A DNA stretch of 64,000 nt from Bradyrhizobium sacchari (GTDB taxonomy: Bacteria > Pseudomonadota > Alphaproteobacteria > Rhizobiales > Xanthobacteraceae), in assembly GCF_002068095.1 (NCBI RefSeq), contig NZ_LWIG01000007.1, positions 576,078-640,077 on the forward strand, given 5' to 3'. Position 1 is the first letter of the stretch; every line of letters starts with the position of its first letter. Below, one piece after another: positions 26,417-33,876 of the stretch. The notes under the pieces were generated by a model. It saw only the letters and a program-made list of their open reading frames with translations. It ran no database searches and was not told where the DNA came from. Position numbers and translations under genes: made by a program.

Positions 26417-27529
26417 TCAGAGTTTGTAGACCGCGCGGGCATTGGTGCTGAAGATTTTCTTCCGTTCCACCTCCGTCAGCGGCGTCTTGAAGGCGAAGCG
26501 CGGATCGTCAAAGTCCCAGTGTGGATAGTCCGATGAGAACAGGAGACGGTCGACACCGACCCATTCGATCAGCGCGCGCAGGTGCCGCGCCTCGTCGGGC
26601 TCGTCGATCGGTTGGGTCGTGAACCAGAAATGCTCGCGGACATATTCCGACGGCTTGCGTTTGAGATGCGGCACCTCGCTGCGGAAGCGCTCGAAATGCT
26701 GGTCCATCCGCCACACCGCCGAGGGAATCCAGCCGAAACCGCCTTCGATGAAGACGATCTTCAGCTTAGGAAACCGCTCCGGCACGCCCTCGATGACGAG
26801 GCTCGCAAGCTGTGCCGCGATGGTGTGGGCATTGGACTGGTGCTCCTCTACATAATAGGACGGCCAGCCGCCGCCGGTTGGCGCGTGGCCGCCATAGCCG
26901 CCGACATGAATGCCGAGGGGCAGGTCGAGCGCCTCGGCACGCTCGTAGATCGGCCAGTAGCGACGACGGCCGAGCGGCTCGTTGGCGCGCGGTGAGACGT
27001 TGATCTGGATGTACTCACCGATCCTGGCGCAGCGCTCGATCTCGGCAATGGCGAGATCCACCCCATCCTGCCCGACCAGGATCGAGGCCTTCAGGCGCGG
27101 ATCGCGGTGCGACCAGAACGCCAGCTGCCAGTCGTTGATCGCGCGCTGGATCGCGGCGCCGAATTCGAGATTCTGCTGCGAGAAGATGAAGAGATCGAGC
27201 ACCTGCAGGATGCCGAACTCGACGTCCAGCGGATCGAGATGCTGCTTCTGCATGAAGGCGAGATCCGAGCCCGGCGGCCCGCCAGTCGGCGGCCAGGCAT
27301 CGCGCCGTGCAATCAGCGGCGAGGAGCGCGGATAGGGCGTCGTGAAGAGATAAGGCGTGCGCAGGTGGCTGCCATATTCCCTCAAATGCTGCTGCCAGCG
27401 TTTCGGCAGGAACTCGTTCAGGTCGTTGACCGAGTGCAGGCTCGGATGCACGTCGCAATCGACAATGCGCAGCCGTGAAGCGGCGGGCTTCTCATCATCA
27501 CGCAGCGGACGGTCGATGACCTCACTCAT
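26417..27529 (-). CDS. Amidohydrolase-2 (ACMSD-like) family protein, copy 1
   Basis: The 370-residue protein is a metal-dependent TIM-barrel amidohydrolase of the family that includes ACMSD and other non-hydrolytic decarboxylases. The Asp-x-His metal motif is in VDCDVHPS, further His in HVGGYGGH, and the late Asp in SSDYPHWDFDD. GGAGG precedes ATG 27529. It is paralogous to the next gene upstream: both share CDxHP, GSDL, INDW and SDYPHW blocks. It is followed by the Rieske gene, 7 bp away. Confidence 0.9.
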   Translation of the reverse strand: MSEVIDRPLRDDEKPAASRLRIVDCDVHPSLHSVNDLNEFLPKRWQQHLREYGSHLRTPYLFTTPYPRSSPLIARRDAWPPTGGPPGSDLAFMQKQHLDPLDVEFGILQVLDLFIFSQQNLEFGAAIQRAINDWQLAFWSHRDPRLKASILVGQDGVDLAIAEIERCARIGEYIQINVSPRANEPLGRRRYWPIYERAEALDLPLGIHVGGYGGHAPTGGGWPSYYVEEHQSNAHTIAAQLASLVIEGVPERFPKLKIVFIEGGFGWIPSAVWRMDQHFERFRSEVPHLKRKPSEYVREHFWFTTQPIDEPDEARHLRALIEWVGVDRLLFSSDYPHWDFDDPRFAFKTPLTEVERKKIFSTNARAVYKL

Positions 27530-27552
27530 GCGAACCTCCAAGCTCTTTGTTT

Positions 27553-27600
27553 GCGCATGATCTCGTCGGAAAACCGGTTCCCACTTTCCGGATCATGCGC
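27553..27600. repeat. Repeat GCGCATGATC...GATCATGCGC, copy 1
   Basis: Perfect 10-bp outer arms GCGCATGATC and GATCATGCGC surround GGAAAACCGGTTCCCACTTTCC. A second copy lies at 33878-33922 in the opposite orientation. It occupies the short gap between the two amidohydrolase genes. Confidence 0.88.
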
Positions 27601-28661
27601 TAGTTGATCGACAGCCGCGGAAACGTCTCCAGCGGATTGTCGACGCACATTTTCGCGATCAGGCTGTTCGGCAAGTTCGGCGGGATCGGATCGTCGCCGT
27701 CGAACTGCCAGTGCGGATAGTCGGATGCGAATAAGAACATCTTTTCCGAGCCGATCTGGTCGATGATCTCCTCGACGCTTTTGGCATCGCCCGGCGCATC
27801 GAACGGCTGCATGGTAACGCGGAAATTCTCGCGGATGATCGCGGCCGGCTCGCGCTCGACCCAGGGCACCTCGACGCGCACGCCGCGCCAGGTCTTGTTG
27901 GCGCGCCACATGAAGGCCGGCAGCCAGCTGACGCCCGACTCCATCAGCACGACCTTGAGGTTCGGAAACTTGCCGAACACGCCTTCGTAGATCAGGCTGA
28001 GGATCTGCGCCTGAAACGCCTGTGCCTCGACAAAGTAATATTCGTAGCGATGCGAGGGCCAGCCGGCCGAGCTCGGTGCCTGCCGATATTGCGTGCCGGC
28101 GTGGATCGCGAGCGGCAGCTTGGACTTTTCCGCGAGCTGATAGACTGGCCAGAAGTGCCGCCGTCCGAGCAGCGTCTCGCCTTGCGCCAGCACCAGGATG
28201 GAGACGAAGCGGTGGTCGCCGGCGCGGCGCTCGATCTCCTCGATCGCCAGATCCGGCGCCTGCATCGGCACCACGATGGAGGCGCGCAGGCGCGGATCGC
28301 GCGACAGCCACTCGGCGGCGATCCAGTCATTAATGGCCTTGCAGAAGTCGGCCGCCATATAGGCGTCGAACACGGCCTGCGCGCCATAGAGCACGTTCAG
28401 GATCGCGTGGCTGGAACCCAGTTGATCGAACGCGCCCTTCTGCACCATGGCGAGATCGGAGCCGGGCTTGGCACCACCCGCCGGTCGCCAGTCGGCGCGG
28501 CCCGAAAGCGGCATGCCTGGTGGATAGGAGGTGAGATCGAGCCCGTCGATGGCGCGGCTCACCACCTGCTCTTTCCAATGATCGCTGAGATAGGGAAGCA
28601 GCGTCGTACGCGTGCCACCAACCGCCGGATGGATGTCGCAGTCGATCCGCGTCGCCACCAT
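27600..28661 (-). CDS. Amidohydrolase-2 (ACMSD-like) family protein, copy 2
   Basis: The 353-residue protein has the same layout as its paralogue: IDCDIHPA (Asp-x-His), AIHAGTQYR, and FASDYPHWQFDGDD for the late metal Asp. ATG 28661 is preceded by GAGGAAAC; the upstream in-frame region to 28793 is arginine-rich and is left out. Family members catalyse hydrolysis or decarboxylation of aromatic or muconate acids. The substrate is not known. It is probably in one operon with copy 1 and the Rieske gene. Confidence 0.9.
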   Translation of the reverse strand: MVATRIDCDIHPAVGGTRTTLLPYLSDHWKEQVVSRAIDGLDLTSYPPGMPLSGRADWRPAGGAKPGSDLAMVQKGAFDQLGSSHAILNVLYGAQAVFDAYMAADFCKAINDWIAAEWLSRDPRLRASIVVPMQAPDLAIEEIERRAGDHRFVSILVLAQGETLLGRRHFWPVYQLAEKSKLPLAIHAGTQYRQAPSSAGWPSHRYEYYFVEAQAFQAQILSLIYEGVFGKFPNLKVVLMESGVSWLPAFMWRANKTWRGVRVEVPWVEREPAAIIRENFRVTMQPFDAPGDAKSVEEIIDQIGSEKMFLFASDYPHWQFDGDDPIPPNLPNSLIAKMCVDNPLETFPRLSIN

Positions 28662-28889: not shown

Positions 28890-29165
28890 TCAAGCCGCCT
28901 TGGAGACCTCCATCAGCAGCCGCTCGGCCTTGGCATCCTCGATGCGATTCACCAGCCGGCTGCTCTCGTGATTGTCGCGCACGGTCTTGGTCAGGGTGAT
29001 GCAGGTCTGGATCAGCATCACGACGCCCATGGTGAGATAGCCCTTCATCCAGAGATCGATCGGCAGGAAGAAGATGCCGACGGCGACCAGGAAGGCGGAG
29101 GCCGCGAAGGACACGTAAGTGAAGGTGATCCAGGCGCTGCTATGGGGCTGGCCGTTCTGGTTCAT
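28890..29165 (-). CDS. YiaA/YiaB-family inner membrane protein
   Basis: This 91-residue protein has two membrane helices (about 12-32 and 40-60) and a charged C-terminal tail, the YiaA/B two-helix domain. It follows pspA by 40 bp on the same strand and is probably its operon partner. The pairing suggests a role in the inner membrane under stress, perhaps as an anchor or sensor for the PspA-type protein; that role is inference. Confidence 0.9.
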   Translation of the reverse strand: MNQNGQPHSSAWITFTYVSFAASAFLVAVGIFFLPIDLWMKGYLTMGVVMLIQTCITLTKTVRDNHESSRLVNRIEDAKAERLLMEVSKAA

Positions 29166-29205
29166 GATGGTCTCCTGTTGGTTCGAATGATGATGAAATC
29201 CGAGT

Positions 29206-29901
29206 TCAGGCCGTCTGGGTGCGCTTGGACTTCAACCGCGCCAGCACGTCGTCGGCGGTCGTCTTGAGCCGGGGGCCAAAACCCTGCTCGGCAAGTCTCT
29301 CGGCGGTCGCGAGCGGCCCGGTCGCCGCATCGAGCTCGACCAGCGCGTCGTCGGCAGCCTGGGCTTCCATCTGACGCTCGCGCAGACGCCTCAAGGTGCT
29401 CTCGGCCTCCGGCAGCGTGGATTCATAGGGACGTGCCGCCTCAATGCCGCTGCGGCGGAGCGAGCGCACCGCTTCCGAGGCACGGGCGAGGCGACGGCCG
29501 CGATCGAGCTCGGTGATGCGGGCCTGCGCAGTCGCGACGTGGCGCTTCAGCCGGGCGATCTCGGCCGCGAACAGCGCGCGAGCCGTCATCGCCGCATCGC
29601 GGTCGGCTTCGAGGCCCGCGATGGCTTCGGCGGCCTCCTTGGCGAGATCCTCGCGGCCGCCATCGAGCGCGGCAACCGCGCGGGTCTCGAGATCGGCGAT
29701 CCGGACGCAGGTCGCCTCGAGCTTGCGGCCCTCCTGCTGGTCCTGCGCAATCGCCAGCGCCAGCGTCCGTTTGCTGCGCTCCACCGCGGCGGCGGCATCG
29801 CGCATCTGCTGATCGAGGATCAGCAGGGCCGTACGGTCCTCCAGCTCCTCGCCTGCGGCGGCTACGCTGCCGCGGAAAAGTGTCACGACGGTCTTGAACA
29901 T
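29206..29901 (-). CDS. pspA: PspA/IM30-family protein
   Basis: The 231-residue protein starts MFKTVVTLFRGSVAAAGEEL and is almost wholly predicted coiled coil with many Ala, Arg and Glu residues, as in PspA/IM30 (ESCRT-III fold). It should bind the inner face of the membrane and protect it under stress. There is no PspF, PspB or PspC; instead, a TetR-type gene is divergent and a YiaA/B gene is downstream. GGGAG precedes ATG 29901, so the longer frame from 29967 is rejected because it crosses the operators. Confidence 0.88.
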   Translation of the reverse strand: MFKTVVTLFRGSVAAAGEELEDRTALLILDQQMRDAAAAVERSKRTLALAIAQDQQEGRKLEATCVRIADLETRAVAALDGGREDLAKEAAEAIAGLEADRDAAMTARALFAAEIARLKRHVATAQARITELDRGRRLARASEAVRSLRRSGIEAARPYESTLPEAESTLRRLRERQMEAQAADDALVELDAATGPLATAERLAEQGFGPRLKTTADDVLARLKSKRTQTA

Positions 29902-29917
29902 CTTCGGCTCCCTGTTA

Positions 29918-29930
29918 TGAGCGTTGCTCA
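29918..29930. promoter_or_regulatory. TetR-type operator dyad 1 (pspA-proximal)
   Basis: TGAGC-GTT-GCTCA has perfect 5-bp arms. It ends 17 bp before the pspA start and shares its pattern with the two dyads at 29953 and 29974. Confidence 0.65.
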
Positions 29931-29952
29931 CATATGCTTTGTAGCAGGAAAC

Positions 29953-29967
29953 TTGAACATCGTTCAA
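29953..29967. promoter_or_regulatory. TetR-type operator dyad 2 (central)
   Basis: TTGAAC-ATC-GTTCAA has perfect 6-bp arms. The TTGAAC on the minus strand (29967-29962) with TACAAA at 29943-29938, 18 bp apart, makes a good promoter for pspA, so a bound repressor would cover the -35 box. Confidence 0.7.
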
Positions 29968-29973
29968 TCGAAA

Positions 29974-29990
29974 TTTGAGCGATGCTCAAA
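29974..29990. promoter_or_regulatory. TetR-type operator dyad 3 (tetR-proximal)
   Basis: TTTGAGC-GAT-GCTCAAA has perfect 7-bp arms and ends 13 bp before the tetR ATG. Together the three dyads follow the pattern TTGARC-N3-GYTCAA. Confidence 0.7.
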
Positions 29991-30003
29991 AAATTGGTTG
30001 CTG

Positions 30004-30612
30004 ATGACTAAGGCCTTGGAACGTCGAGCGAAACTTCGGACCGACCTGATCCAGACAGCCGAGCGGATGATCGCTGAGCGGGGATTGGCGGGTCTGAAAA
30101 CCCGCGATTTGGCCCGCGCGATCGGCTGCGCCAATGGCGCGGTCTACAATCTCGTCACCGATGTGGACGAACTCGTCCTGCGCGTCGGCTCGCGCACATT
30201 GCTTCGCCTCGACGAAGCACTCAGCACGGCGGAAAGCACCGGTGAGCCTTCGCCACGGGAGACGCTGGTCCGCATCGCCATTGCCTATTGCGACTTCGCC
30301 GCCGAAAACCTCGAGCTCTGGCGCGCGCTGTTCGAGCACCGCATGGCGGCCGACAAGATCCTGCCCGACTGGTCGGTCAACGACCAGCTGCAGCTGTTCC
30401 GTCACATCTATCATCCGCTGGCGCTGCTGTTTCCCAAGCGCAGTCAGGAGGACCTCGGCATCACCGCACGCAGCCTGTTCTCGGCCGTGCATGGCATGGT
30501 GGCGCTAGGGCTGGAGCAGAAGCTGGTCGCCGTTCCCCTGCCGGCGCTTCGCAAGGAGATCGCGGACCTCGTCCGCGCGATGATCGACGGGCTGGTCGCG
30601 CGGACGGAGTAA
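30004..30612 (+). CDS. TetR-family repressor divergent from pspA
   Basis: The 202-residue protein has the TetR helix-turn-helix (LKTRDLARAIGCANGAVYNLV, about residues 33-53) and an all-helical C-terminal domain resembling the TetR_C_33 type (SILHAL-like end, LWRALFEHR). ATG 30004 is used because the frame further upstream runs antisense through pspA. Three related palindromes fill the 102 bp between the two start codons, so autoregulation and control of pspA-yiaA are likely. The inducing signal is unknown. Confidence 0.92.
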   Translation: MTKALERRAKLRTDLIQTAERMIAERGLAGLKTRDLARAIGCANGAVYNLVTDVDELVLRVGSRTLLRLDEALSTAESTGEPSPRETLVRIAIAYCDFAAENLELWRALFEHRMAADKILPDWSVNDQLQLFRHIYHPLALLFPKRSQEDLGITARSLFSAVHGMVALGLEQKLVAVPLPALRKEIADLVRAMIDGLVARTE

Positions 30613-30707: not shown

Positions 30708-32162
30708 ATGCCCCTCCTCATCCGCGGCGGCATCGTCGTCAATCACGATCATTCGCGCCGTGCGGACGTGCTGCTCGACGGCGAGACCATCGTGGCGGTG
30801 GGCCCGTCGATCGAGGCGCCCACAGGCACCGAGATCATCGATGCCGGCGGCGCCTACATCATCCCGGGCGGGATCGATCCGCACACGCATCTCGAAATGC
30901 CGTTCATGGGCACGGTGACCGCCGACGATTTCGAATCGGGAACCAAGGCGGCACTGACCGGCGGCACCACGATGGTGGTCGATTTCTGCCTGCCCGATCC
31001 CGGCCAGTCCATGCTCGCGGCCTATCAGGAGTGGCGGCACAAATCCGAGAAGGCGGCGAGCGACTACGGCTTCCACATGGCGGTGACGTCGTGGTCGAAG
31101 CAGATCTATGACGAGATGGAGACCGTGGTCAAAACCTACGGCATCAACACCTTCAAACATTTCATGGCCTACAAGGGCGCGCTGATGGTGAACGATGACG
31201 AGCTCTACAACTCGTTCGCGCGCTGTGCGCATCTCGGCGCCATGCCTGTGGTCCATGCCGAGAACGGCGACGTCGTCGCCCTGATGCAGGAGGCGCTGAT
31301 CGCGCGCGGCGTCACCGGCCCGGAGGGCCACGCCTATTCGCGGCCGCCGGAGGTCGAGGGCGAAGCCACCAACCGCGCCATCATGATCGCCGACATGACC
31401 GGCACGCCGGTCTATATCGTGCACACCAGCTGCCGCGAGGCGCATGAGGCGATCGCGCGGGCGCGGGCGGCGGGAAAGCGGGTCTACGGCGAGCCGCTGA
31501 TCCAGCATCTGCTGCTGGATGCCGGTGAGTACCAGAACAAGGACTGGGACCATTCCGCCCAGCGCGTGATGTCGCCGCCGTTCCGCGACAGGCAGCATCA
31601 GGACAGCCTCTGGGCCGGCCTGCAAGCCGGCTCACTGCAGGTGGTCGCAACCGATCATTGCGCCTTCACCACCGAGCAGAAGCGGTTCGGGCTCGGCGAT
31701 TTCAGGAAGATCCCGAACGGCACCGGCGGCCTCGAAGATCGGCTCTCACTGTTGTGGACCGCGGGCGTCGCCACGGGGCGGCTGACAAAAGAGGAATTCG
31801 TCGCGGTGACCTCGGCGAACATCGCCCGCATCCTCAACATCTATCCGCGCAAGGGCGCGGTCGCCGTCGGCTCGGATGCCGATGTCGTGGTGTGGGATCC
31901 CAAGGCGACGAAGACCATCAGCGCCAAGCGGCAGATGAGCCGGATCGATTACAACGTGTTCGAAGGCTTTGCCTGCACGGGCGGAGCGGCGGCGACGCTG
32001 TCGCGCGGCCGTATCGTCTGGAAGGACGGCGATCTGCGCGCCGAGGCAGGCGACGGGCATTATGTCGAGCGTCCGGCTTTCTCGCCGGTGCACGTTGCGA
32101 ATTCGACCTGGAAAGAGCTGACCGCCCCGCGCGCGGTCGCACGCGGAGCGGTCACGCCGTAG
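30708..32162 (+). CDS. Dihydropyrimidinase / D-hydantoinase
   Basis: The 484-residue protein has the cyclic amidohydrolase metal site: DPHTHLE (H59, H61), the lysine of FMAYKG (K156) expected to be carbamylated, VVHAEN, YIVHTSC and TDHCAF. Together these mark dihydropyrimidinase / hydantoinase, which opens the ring of dihydrouracil or hydantoins. The usual partners (beta-ureidopropionase, dihydropyrimidine dehydrogenase) are not in the window. It is followed by a binding protein that may import its substrate. GGAG is 11 bp upstream of the ATG. Confidence 0.93.
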   Translation: MPLLIRGGIVVNHDHSRRADVLLDGETIVAVGPSIEAPTGTEIIDAGGAYIIPGGIDPHTHLEMPFMGTVTADDFESGTKAALTGGTTMVVDFCLPDPGQSMLAAYQEWRHKSEKAASDYGFHMAVTSWSKQIYDEMETVVKTYGINTFKHFMAYKGALMVNDDELYNSFARCAHLGAMPVVHAENGDVVALMQEALIARGVTGPEGHAYSRPPEVEGEATNRAIMIADMTGTPVYIVHTSCREAHEAIARARAAGKRVYGEPLIQHLLLDAGEYQNKDWDHSAQRVMSPPFRDRQHQDSLWAGLQAGSLQVVATDHCAFTTEQKRFGLGDFRKIPNGTGGLEDRLSLLWTAGVATGRLTKEEFVAVTSANIARILNIYPRKGAVAVGSDADVVVWDPKATKTISAKRQMSRIDYNVFEGFACTGGAAATLSRGRIVWKDGDLRAEAGDGHYVERPAFSPVHVANSTWKELTAPRAVARGAVTP

Positions 32163-32173
32163 CACGATCGAGC

Positions 32174-32219
32174 GCAAGGCGTGTGACACCGTGAAGCGCG
32201 CCGATGGCACACGCCTTGC
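32174..32219. terminator. 12-bp inverted repeat after dihydropyrimidinase gene
   Basis: GCAAGGCGTGTG (32174-32185) and CACACGCCTTGC (32208-32219) are perfect arms around a 22-nt loop, 11 bp after the stop codon. A weak T-rich stretch follows (CTCTTTGTAT). It may terminate or attenuate transcription. The right arm also contains TGGCAC-N5-TTGC, the sigma-54 -24/-12 pattern, so a promoter for the next gene is the alternative reading. Confidence 0.5.
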
Positions 32220-32256
32220 CTCTTTGTATCGCAGATTTCTCGCAAAAGAGGCACCG

Positions 32257-33876
32257 ATGAGCGCATCACCTTTGGACATCAGCCGACGCAATGTGGTGCT
32301 TGGCGGCCTCGGCGCCGGAATGACAGCATTTGCTCCGTCTCTCGCCCCGGCGCAGGGGCGCAGCGAGACGCTGCTGGTGGTGCAGGAGCTCGGGCCGAAT
32401 TCGCTGGACATGCAGGGCGTCGGCTCCAACCAGACCGTCAATGGTCTCTCCTGGAACTGCTACGACCGCTTGCTGACCTACGCCTCCAAAACACTGCCCG
32501 ATGGGACGACGTCATACGACCGTGAGAGGCTCGCGCCTGAACTCGCCGAGAGCTGGGAGGTCGCGGCTGATGGCATGTCCTGCACTTTCCGCTTGCGCAA
32601 GGACGCGAAATTCCACGACGGCACGCCAGTTACCGCCAAGGATGTCAAATGGTCGTTCGATCGCGCCGTGAAGGTCGGCGGCTTCCCGACCTTCCAGATG
32701 TCGGCGGGATCGCTGGAGAAGCCCGAGCAGTTCGTGGTGGTCGACGACCACACCTTCCGCATCGACTATGTCCGCAAGGACAAGATGCTGCTGTTTAACG
32801 TCGCCGTCGTCGTGCCCTTCATCATCAATTCCGAGCTCGCCAGGAAGAACGCGACGCCGGAAGACCCGTGGGCGCTGGCGTGGCTGAAGAACAACGAGGC
32901 CGGCGGCGGCGCCTACAAGATCGAGAGCTGGAAGCCGGGCAGCGAGACGATACTGGCGCGCTTCGACGACTGGAAGAGCGGGCCGCTGCCGAAGGTCAGG
33001 CGCGTCATCGCGCGCGACGTCCCCTCCGCCGGCACCCGTCGCGCCATGCTGGAGCGCGGCGATGCGGATATTTCCAGCGGCTTTGCGCCGCGCGATTTCG
33101 AGCAGCTCATCAAGGAAGGCAAGGTCAAGGTCTCGGGCGTGCCGATCCCGAACGCGCTCTGGTACGTGGCGCTGAACACCGCGAGGCCGCCGTTCGACAA
33201 TGCCAAGCTACGCCAGGCCATCGCATGGGCCATGCCCTACGAGCAGATCCAGACCAGCGCCTTCTTCGGCCGCGCCGTTCCCATGTATGGCGGCGCGGCC
33301 GACGTCTCAAAGCCGGTCTGGCCGCAGCCGTTTCCCTACGTCACCGATCTCGACAAGGCCAAGGCCTTGATGAAGGAAGCAGGATTCGAATCCGGCCTGG
33401 AGACGACACTGTCGCTGGACACGGGCACGGCCACCGTCGGTGAGCCGACCGCCATCCTGATCCAGGAGAACCTCGCCAAGATCGGCATCAAGACGGGAAT
33501 CGAAAAAATCCCCGGCGCGAACTGGCGCACGACGCTGAACAAGAAGGAGCTGCCGCTCGCGCTCAACCGCTTCAGCGGCTGGCTCGACTATCCCGAATAT
33601 TACTTCTACTGGAATTTCCACGGCAACAATTCGATCTTCAACATCTCCTCCTACCAGAACAAGGAGATGGACGCGCTGATCGACAAGGCGCGCTTCACTA
33701 CGGATGCCTCAGAGTACGACAGATGCGTGAAGGATTTCATCTCGCTCTGCATGCGTGACGTCCCCGTCATTCCGCTCAACCAGCCGATCCACGACGTCGC
33801 CATGCAGAAGAACGTCGGCGGCTACGAATTCTGGTTTCACCGCGAACCGGACTACCGCCAGTTCTCGAAGGGCTAA
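32257..33876 (+). CDS. Peptide/opine-type ABC binding protein (SBP family 5)
   Basis: The 539-residue protein begins with a likely Tat-type signal (SRRNVVLGGLGAGMTAFA, ending near APAQG at residue 33) and continues with the family 5 fold: AESWEVAADGMSCTFRLRKD-KFHDGTPVTAKDV. It should bind a peptide-like, opine or other solute in the periplasm. No permease or ATPase is encoded next to it, so it is an orphan in this window. The preceding dihydropyrimidinase suggests, without proof, a hydantoin or pyrimidine ligand. Confidence 0.9.
   Translation: MSASPLDISRRNVVLGGLGAGMTAFAPSLAPAQGRSETLLVVQELGPNSLDMQGVGSNQTVNGLSWNCYDRLLTYASKTLPDGTTSYDRERLAPELAESWEVAADGMSCTFRLRKDAKFHDGTPVTAKDVKWSFDRAVKVGGFPTFQMSAGSLEKPEQFVVVDDHTFRIDYVRKDKMLLFNVAVVVPFIINSELARKNATPEDPWALAWLKNNEAGGGAYKIESWKPGSETILARFDDWKSGPLPKVRRVIARDVPSAGTRRAMLERGDADISSGFAPRDFEQLIKEGKVKVSGVPIPNALWYVALNTARPPFDNAKLRQAIAWAMPYEQIQTSAFFGRAVPMYGGAADVSKPVWPQPFPYVTDLDKAKALMKEAGFESGLETTLSLDTGTATVGEPTAILIQENLAKIGIKTGIEKIPGANWRTTLNKKELPLALNRFSGWLDYPEYYFYWNFHGNNSIFNISSYQNKEMDALIDKARFTTDASEYDRCVKDFISLCMRDVPVIPLNQPIHDVAMQKNVGGYEFWFHREPDYRQFSKG

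Follow-up and report, generated by a model that had tools for sequence, protein, structure and literature searches.

A pspA-yiaA unit with a TetR-type regulator gene and three putative operator dyads in Bradyrhizobium sacchari, and its recurrence across Alphaproteobacteria

Proteins of the PspA/Vipp1/ESCRT-III type have been intensively studied. Less is known about how PspA-type proteins are controlled apart from the classical models. The LplT/Aas system has its role in lysophospholipid re-acylation. Altered PspFABC operons occur in some Alphaproteobacteria (PMC11237479), and a word search of the main texts of two PSP surveys (PMC11237479, PMC9239133) returned neither TetR nor YiaA. In the literature searched, no paper among the matches listed combined PspA, YiaA and TetR, joined YiaAB with PspA or mentioned the TetR structure 3CJD, and no description of a TetR-pspA-yiaA system was found among them.

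The locus described here lies in a stretch of 64,000 nucleotides of the Bradyrhizobium sacchari genome (hereafter the window), in which a tetR-type gene is divergent from pspA and yiaA (Table 1). The genes and coordinates given in the earlier note were confirmed. The window PspA carried a PspA/IM30 domain (PF04012, E 5.5e-22) and shared 30.1% identity with the E. coli protein annotated yjfJ; it had no NCBIfam match at 0.001 and only marginal matches in the PDB (best 4whe, E 0.06). A second match to the PspA/IM30 family, above the Pfam cut-off, was present elsewhere in the genome (G000:C33:228351-228848). The YiaAB domain was complete in the window YiaA (PF05360, E 1.6e-19, positions 1-53 of 53), which was the sole match to this family in its genome and found nothing better than E 0.27 in the PDB. 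The regulator matched TetR_N (PF00440) and TetR_C_33 (PF13305), both above cut-off; its AlphaFold2 model displayed nine helices with a mean pLDDT of 96.7, and the nearest solved structure was 3cjd (40-42% identity, TM 0.81-0.92 with Foldseek). None of the three proteins had a match in PHROGs. A test for aas directly behind yiaA was negative, this place being taken by a co-oriented Amidohydro_2 gene. The unit was flanked by catabolic-type genes: one side has two amidohydrolase-like genes (26417-28661, one of them checked by Pfam), and the opposite side (30708-33876) encodes a dihydropyrimidinase and an ABC substrate-binding protein. The proposal of a separate psp system fits the gene content of the genome, where neither PspF (TIGR02974, 9 matches, best 291.6 bits for a cut-off of 443.55) nor PspC (PF04024, one match of 19.5 bits for a cut-off of 25) was found above the curated cut-off.

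Table 1. Coordinates of the features at the pspA-yiaA locus (positions in the window) and at the second locus of the same genome (G000:C63, positions in L033)
Feature	Position	Strand	Description
yiaA-like gene	28890..29165	-	91 aa YiaAB two-helix membrane protein; second gene, behind pspA
pspA-like gene	29206..29901	-	231 aa, PspA/IM30 family
Dyad D1, putative operator site	29918..29930	.	TGAGC-GTT-GCTCA (13-mer core)
Putative -10-like element of pspA	29940..29946	-	TGCTACA, 9 bp from D1
Dyad D2, putative operator site	core 29954-29966, full 29953..29967	.	TTGAAC-ATC-GTTCAA; just upstream of the -10-like element
Dyad D3, putative operator site	core 29976-29988, full 29975..29989	.	TTGAGC-GAT-GCTCAA; nearest tetR
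tetR-type regulator gene	30004..30612	+	202 aa; TetR_N and TetR_C_33
Second locus, tetR2	L033:4972-5538	-	paralogous TetR
Second locus, two dyads	L033:5558-5600		TGAACATTGTTCA; putative operator of the same kind
Second locus, conserved open frame	L033:5623-5886	+	88 aa, divergent
Second locus, aas fusion gene	open frame to L033:9642	+	about 0.6 kb past the 88-aa frame

The gap between pspA and tetR (29902-30003, 102 bp) contained three dyads, as noted earlier, although the single pattern TTGARC-N3-GYTCAA assigned to all of them was retained in its full form by D2 and D3 only: D1 with its flanks reads ATGAGC-GTT-GCTCAC, and the core common to the three is TGARC-N3-GYTCA. Of the outer dyads, D1 lies 16 bp from the pspA ATG, and D3 is separated by 14-15 bp from the start codon of tetR (ATG at 30004). 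The 15-mer TTGARC-N3-GYTCAA occurred at 2 places in the genome of 8,698,798 bases, both in the gap, and the reversed control at none. The 13-mer core was found at 10 places versus 12 for its control, and therefore has no rarity by itself; taken alone, it was rejected as a genome-wide marker of a regulon. The 10 places comprised three in the gap, two before the paralogous tetR and five singletons, so that clustering of the 13-mer was restricted to the gap and to the region before the paralogous tetR.

A likely -35 box of pspA, previously placed under the middle dyad, was not supported by a sigma-70 consensus promoter scan of the gap, which gave 0 matches. The TGCTACA block was exact in 18 of the 24 orthologous loci of the genus described below and stood at the same distance from D1 in 17 of these 18, its distance to D2 being variable; since it was conserved at a constant distance from D1, a -10-like element is plausible. 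If TGCTACA is indeed the -10 element, the -35 region would lie under D2 and the start site under D1, which is the usual layout of repression by occlusion.

Thirty-six genomes of the genus, including that of B. sacchari itself, were compared. A close ortholog of the window TetR (71-100%) was present in 24 of them. Loss of the gene order or of the dyads in relatives had been named beforehand as a refuting test; the pspA-yiaA order and the three dyads were kept at all 24 loci, own genome included, with start-to-start distances of 34-36 and 22-23 bp. The variable base was symmetrical in 71 of 72 dyads, and D2 displayed TGAAC/GTTCA in 8 orthologs and TGAGC/GCTCA in 16, which indicates that its two arms change together. 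Occurrence of the three genes was, in this comparison, all or none: PspA, YiaA and TetR were all detected in 24 genomes at the E-values used, while 11 of the 36 had neither PspA nor YiaA nor a TetR closely orthologous to that of the window; just a paralogous TetR was retained in two of these 11. Within a set of 60 relatives, a PspA of the window type was encoded in 31, and a TetR homolog adjoined it in every one. The dyads and the gene arrangement are not due to chance. One genus member (G032) harbored a diverged PspA and YiaA beside a paralogous TetR, with a small open frame first (L031:1501-3474), in place of aas. In five others (G001, G012, G019, G024, G031) a second YiaA copy was found about 1-2 kb past the first.

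Beyond the genus, the three-dyad pattern matched in 6 of 387 genomes of the class (reversed control, 0), and all 6 matches directly adjoined a TetR found independently by a profile search. Of the 387 genomes, 47 gave TetR homologs with this profile; a recognizable relative of the TetR is thus missing from most genomes of the class. A scan of named genomes with the pattern in its TGAAC form yielded at least 120 stretches and, from these, 80 readable loci; as the loci were chosen for their TGAAC sites, counts of TGAAC obtained from them are biased. Among the matches listed, PspA, TetR or Aas was adjacent in 76 of the 80 readable loci, the D1-D2 distance was 32-37 bp and the D2-D3 distance was 22-24 bp in 80 of 80 (20-26 being allowed), and D1 lay 16-18 bp from the start of PspA homology in 37 of 56. 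Again among the matches listed, PspA was found in 55 of the 73 loci with at least 300 bp on the D1 side and Aas in 11 of the other 18; YiaA followed PspA in 50 of 51 loci with at least 1100 bp, and Aas followed PspA in only 12 of 41 with at least 1800 bp, including loci of Rhizobium, Bosea, Ensifer, Aureimonas and Methylobacterium. Four of the 80 triple-dyad loci listed had none of PspA, TetR and Aas (L155, L166, L168, L182), two of them (L155, L166) with no sequence on the D1 side. The match at L182:6751-6823 came from a record labelled Deltaproteobacteria (MAG), and no TetR, PspA, YiaA or Aas homolog was found in its 8 kb. The three-site switch is widespread in Alphaproteobacteria, in some cases accompanied by a phospholipid-repair enzyme.

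We consider it quite likely that the locus is an autoregulated, TetR-repressed membrane-damage response module outside the PspF/PspC paradigm. The three TGARC-N3-GYTCA dyads would be bound by a dimer of the TetR-type repressor: D2 and D1, on either side of the -10-like element, would block the pspA promoter, and D3, spaced from D2 by about two helical turns on the tetR side, would together with D2 allow autoregulation. Damage to the cytoplasmic membrane would generate a small hydrophobic signal, most likely from phospholipid turnover, able to release the repressor (acid would be one known inducer, in a relative), and PspA, an ESCRT-III-like membrane coat, would then be made along with YiaA, its presumed membrane partner. 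In some relatives the same operator would also drive Aas, a fusion of MFS, acyltransferase and ligase parts re-acylating phospholipid, while in the B. sacchari genome the aas gene is found elsewhere, at a second locus that has a paralogous tetR to itself and two such dyads (Table 1).

Rhizobium tropici CIAT 899 harbored the three-dyad operator and pspA-yiaA-aas on plasmid pRtrCIAT899c, where PspA matched only once at the threshold applied. In published RNA-seq data, the PspA gene RTCIAT899_RS28825 of this plasmid reached a log2FC of 4.87 in cells adapted to pH 4.5, and of 4.42 after 45 min of acid shock, when it was one of only 11 genes up, in an expression table whose footnote admits p < 0.15 (PMC5936775). 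These values correspond to a rise of about 21- to 29-fold. The TetR gene RTCIAT899_RS28830 was named there among possible transcription factors of acid stress (PMC5936775). From the consecutive tags and the single PspA on the plasmid, we infer that RS28825 and RS28830 are the operator-linked pspA/tetR pair.

The Aas proteins tested at three loci, including the second locus of the B. sacchari genome, were all above the NF005291 cut-off (acyl-[ACP]--phospholipid O-acyltransferase), and the B. sacchari protein contained MFS, acyltransferase and AMP-binding domains. The 88-aa frame of the second locus had a similar counterpart at each of the 15 paralog loci compared. In a tree of 101 dereplicated TetR proteins out of 155 gathered, psp and aas labels needed at least 7 changes, and the named rows nearest to the window TetR were two Bosea proteins beside pspA-yiaA-aas; as 42 of 98 inner branches were weak, the tree supports only the recurrence of both targets. 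Further neighbors of this TetR family included a CDP-alcohol phosphatidyltransferase, a CdsA-type cytidylyltransferase, Methyltransf_20, Hydrolase_4 and DUF676 proteins, along with proteins without evident lipid role (2-oxoglutarate dehydrogenase-like, VIT/VWA, MarC). TetR relatives beside genes of the Methyltransf_20 and CDP-alcohol phosphatidyltransferase types were seen at L050, L083 and L180 (checked by Pfam) and at L052 (by eye), with an additional CdsA-type gene at L050 and a Hydrolase_4-Methyltransf_20 fusion at L180; these relatives possibly mark a phospholipid-synthesis unit. Because of the recurrent partners, the module probably senses a signal of phospholipid damage. A more specific version, to which we give somewhat less than an even chance, is that this TetR subfamily senses a phospholipid breakdown product (lysophospholipid, free fatty acid or acyl thioester) and derepresses PspA, YiaA and Aas through the three-site operator, as a dedicated alphaproteobacterial response to phospholipid damage.

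Most characterized TetR regulators are of the xenobiotic-sensing kind, and the main alternative is a TetR sensing an external toxic compound, with PspA-YiaA as a generic protective output and no phospholipid signal. Efflux control was indeed suggested for the acid-stress TetR genes of R. tropici (PMC5936775). However, no efflux pump was found by Pfam among the 30 neighbor proteins selected for the search, in which MFS domains came from Aas-type proteins, and the partners that recur are PspA, YiaA and Aas; we regard a xenobiotic sensor as unlikely.

Orientation of tetR varied among the 73 listed loci with room for it: 46 had a divergent tetR and 15 a same-strand one, and the other 12 showed no TetR. 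Same-strand loci were those of roseobacters and relatives, with the operator between the tetR end and pspA. Among the matches listed, the three dyads stood directly before pspA in 14 of these 15 loci, the fifteenth (L175) having just 36 bp there, and at one same-strand locus (L149) tetR ended 1.3 kb away. The arrangement of the dyads is thus tied to the pspA promoter, also where tetR is on the same strand. This speaks against a TetR acting mainly on itself, with dyads serving tetR alone and pspA-yiaA under another factor, as do the triple dyads placed before aas with no TetR in the stretch examined (L129, L135-L137, L164, L183). Divergent TetR genes usually autoregulate, and a single dyad preceded tetR in the same-strand loci L073-L076, but control restricted to tetR seems very improbable to us.

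The match between regulator and operator, like the palindromes themselves, supports binding of the TetR to the dyads. In 44 loci picked by protein alone (L072-L115), an exact dyad was found near the tetR start in 30 and the reversed pattern in none; the 14 loci without exact dyad count against the repressor-operator explanation. In the window TetR, the predicted recognition helix (H44-50, AlphaFold2 model) begins with residue 44. All 24 genus orthologs had N at this position and TGAGC in 127 of 144 half-sites; most other TetRs, which use TGAAC, had V, L or P (exceptions with one G arm being L078 and L086, with V44, and L091, with S44). Among paralogous TetRs, V44 went with TGAAC only (9 of 9), and 5 of 6 with I44 had one TGAGC dyad, L031 being the exception. 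This covariation of residue 44 with the G/A of the half-site is the pattern predicted for direct contact, and since N44/TGAGC forms one clade it rests on few independent events. A role of the dyads as hairpins or terminators of leader RNAs, instead of operators, is extremely improbable: a terminator-like scan flagged D3 (minus strand) and D1 (plus strand), and D1 could fall within the pspA leader, but the three sites keep a fixed phase, their G/A identity tracks TetR residue 44, and the -10-like element is downstream of both D2 and D3.

With a module of this kind, a defined PspA system that is inducible would be established for Alphaproteobacteria (rhizobia, roseobacters and relatives), PspA would be linked to the re-acylation of phospholipids, and YiaAB would acquire a context. 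If the phospholipid breakdown product is the signal, membrane remodeling and lipid repair would form one regulon, YiaA would gain a function and PspA a lipid-sensing control. The system is compact for a ligand search, a related crystal structure (3cjd) being already solved, and the acid induction reported for the R. tropici gene would make it testable under a symbiosis-relevant stress.

Compared with known systems, the unit resembles PspF-PspABC of E. coli by its PspA/IM30 protein, a presumed inducible membrane protector, and by its divergent regulator gene; it differs by a TetR-type gene in place of the PspF activator, by its YiaA partner, by three repeated dyads and, in relatives, by Aas as a partner. 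It has in common with the PspA operon variants outlined in PMC11237479 that PspA is combined with varied regulators and membrane partners. The best structural and sequence neighbor of the window TetR is the TetR of Jannaschia sp. CCS1 (3cjd), whose entry title gives no function. The YiaAB two-helix domain is shared with E. coli YiaA (PRK11383), whereas the window protein of 91 aa matched only positions 62-122 of that model (25.1 bits versus a cut-off of 150) and is encoded behind pspA. As in LplT/Aas re-acylation, the Aas of relatives and of the second locus matches acyl-[ACP]--phospholipid O-acyltransferase above cut-off; unlike in that system, transporter, acyltransferase and ligase are fused behind a dyad operator, in some relatives directly after pspA-yiaA.
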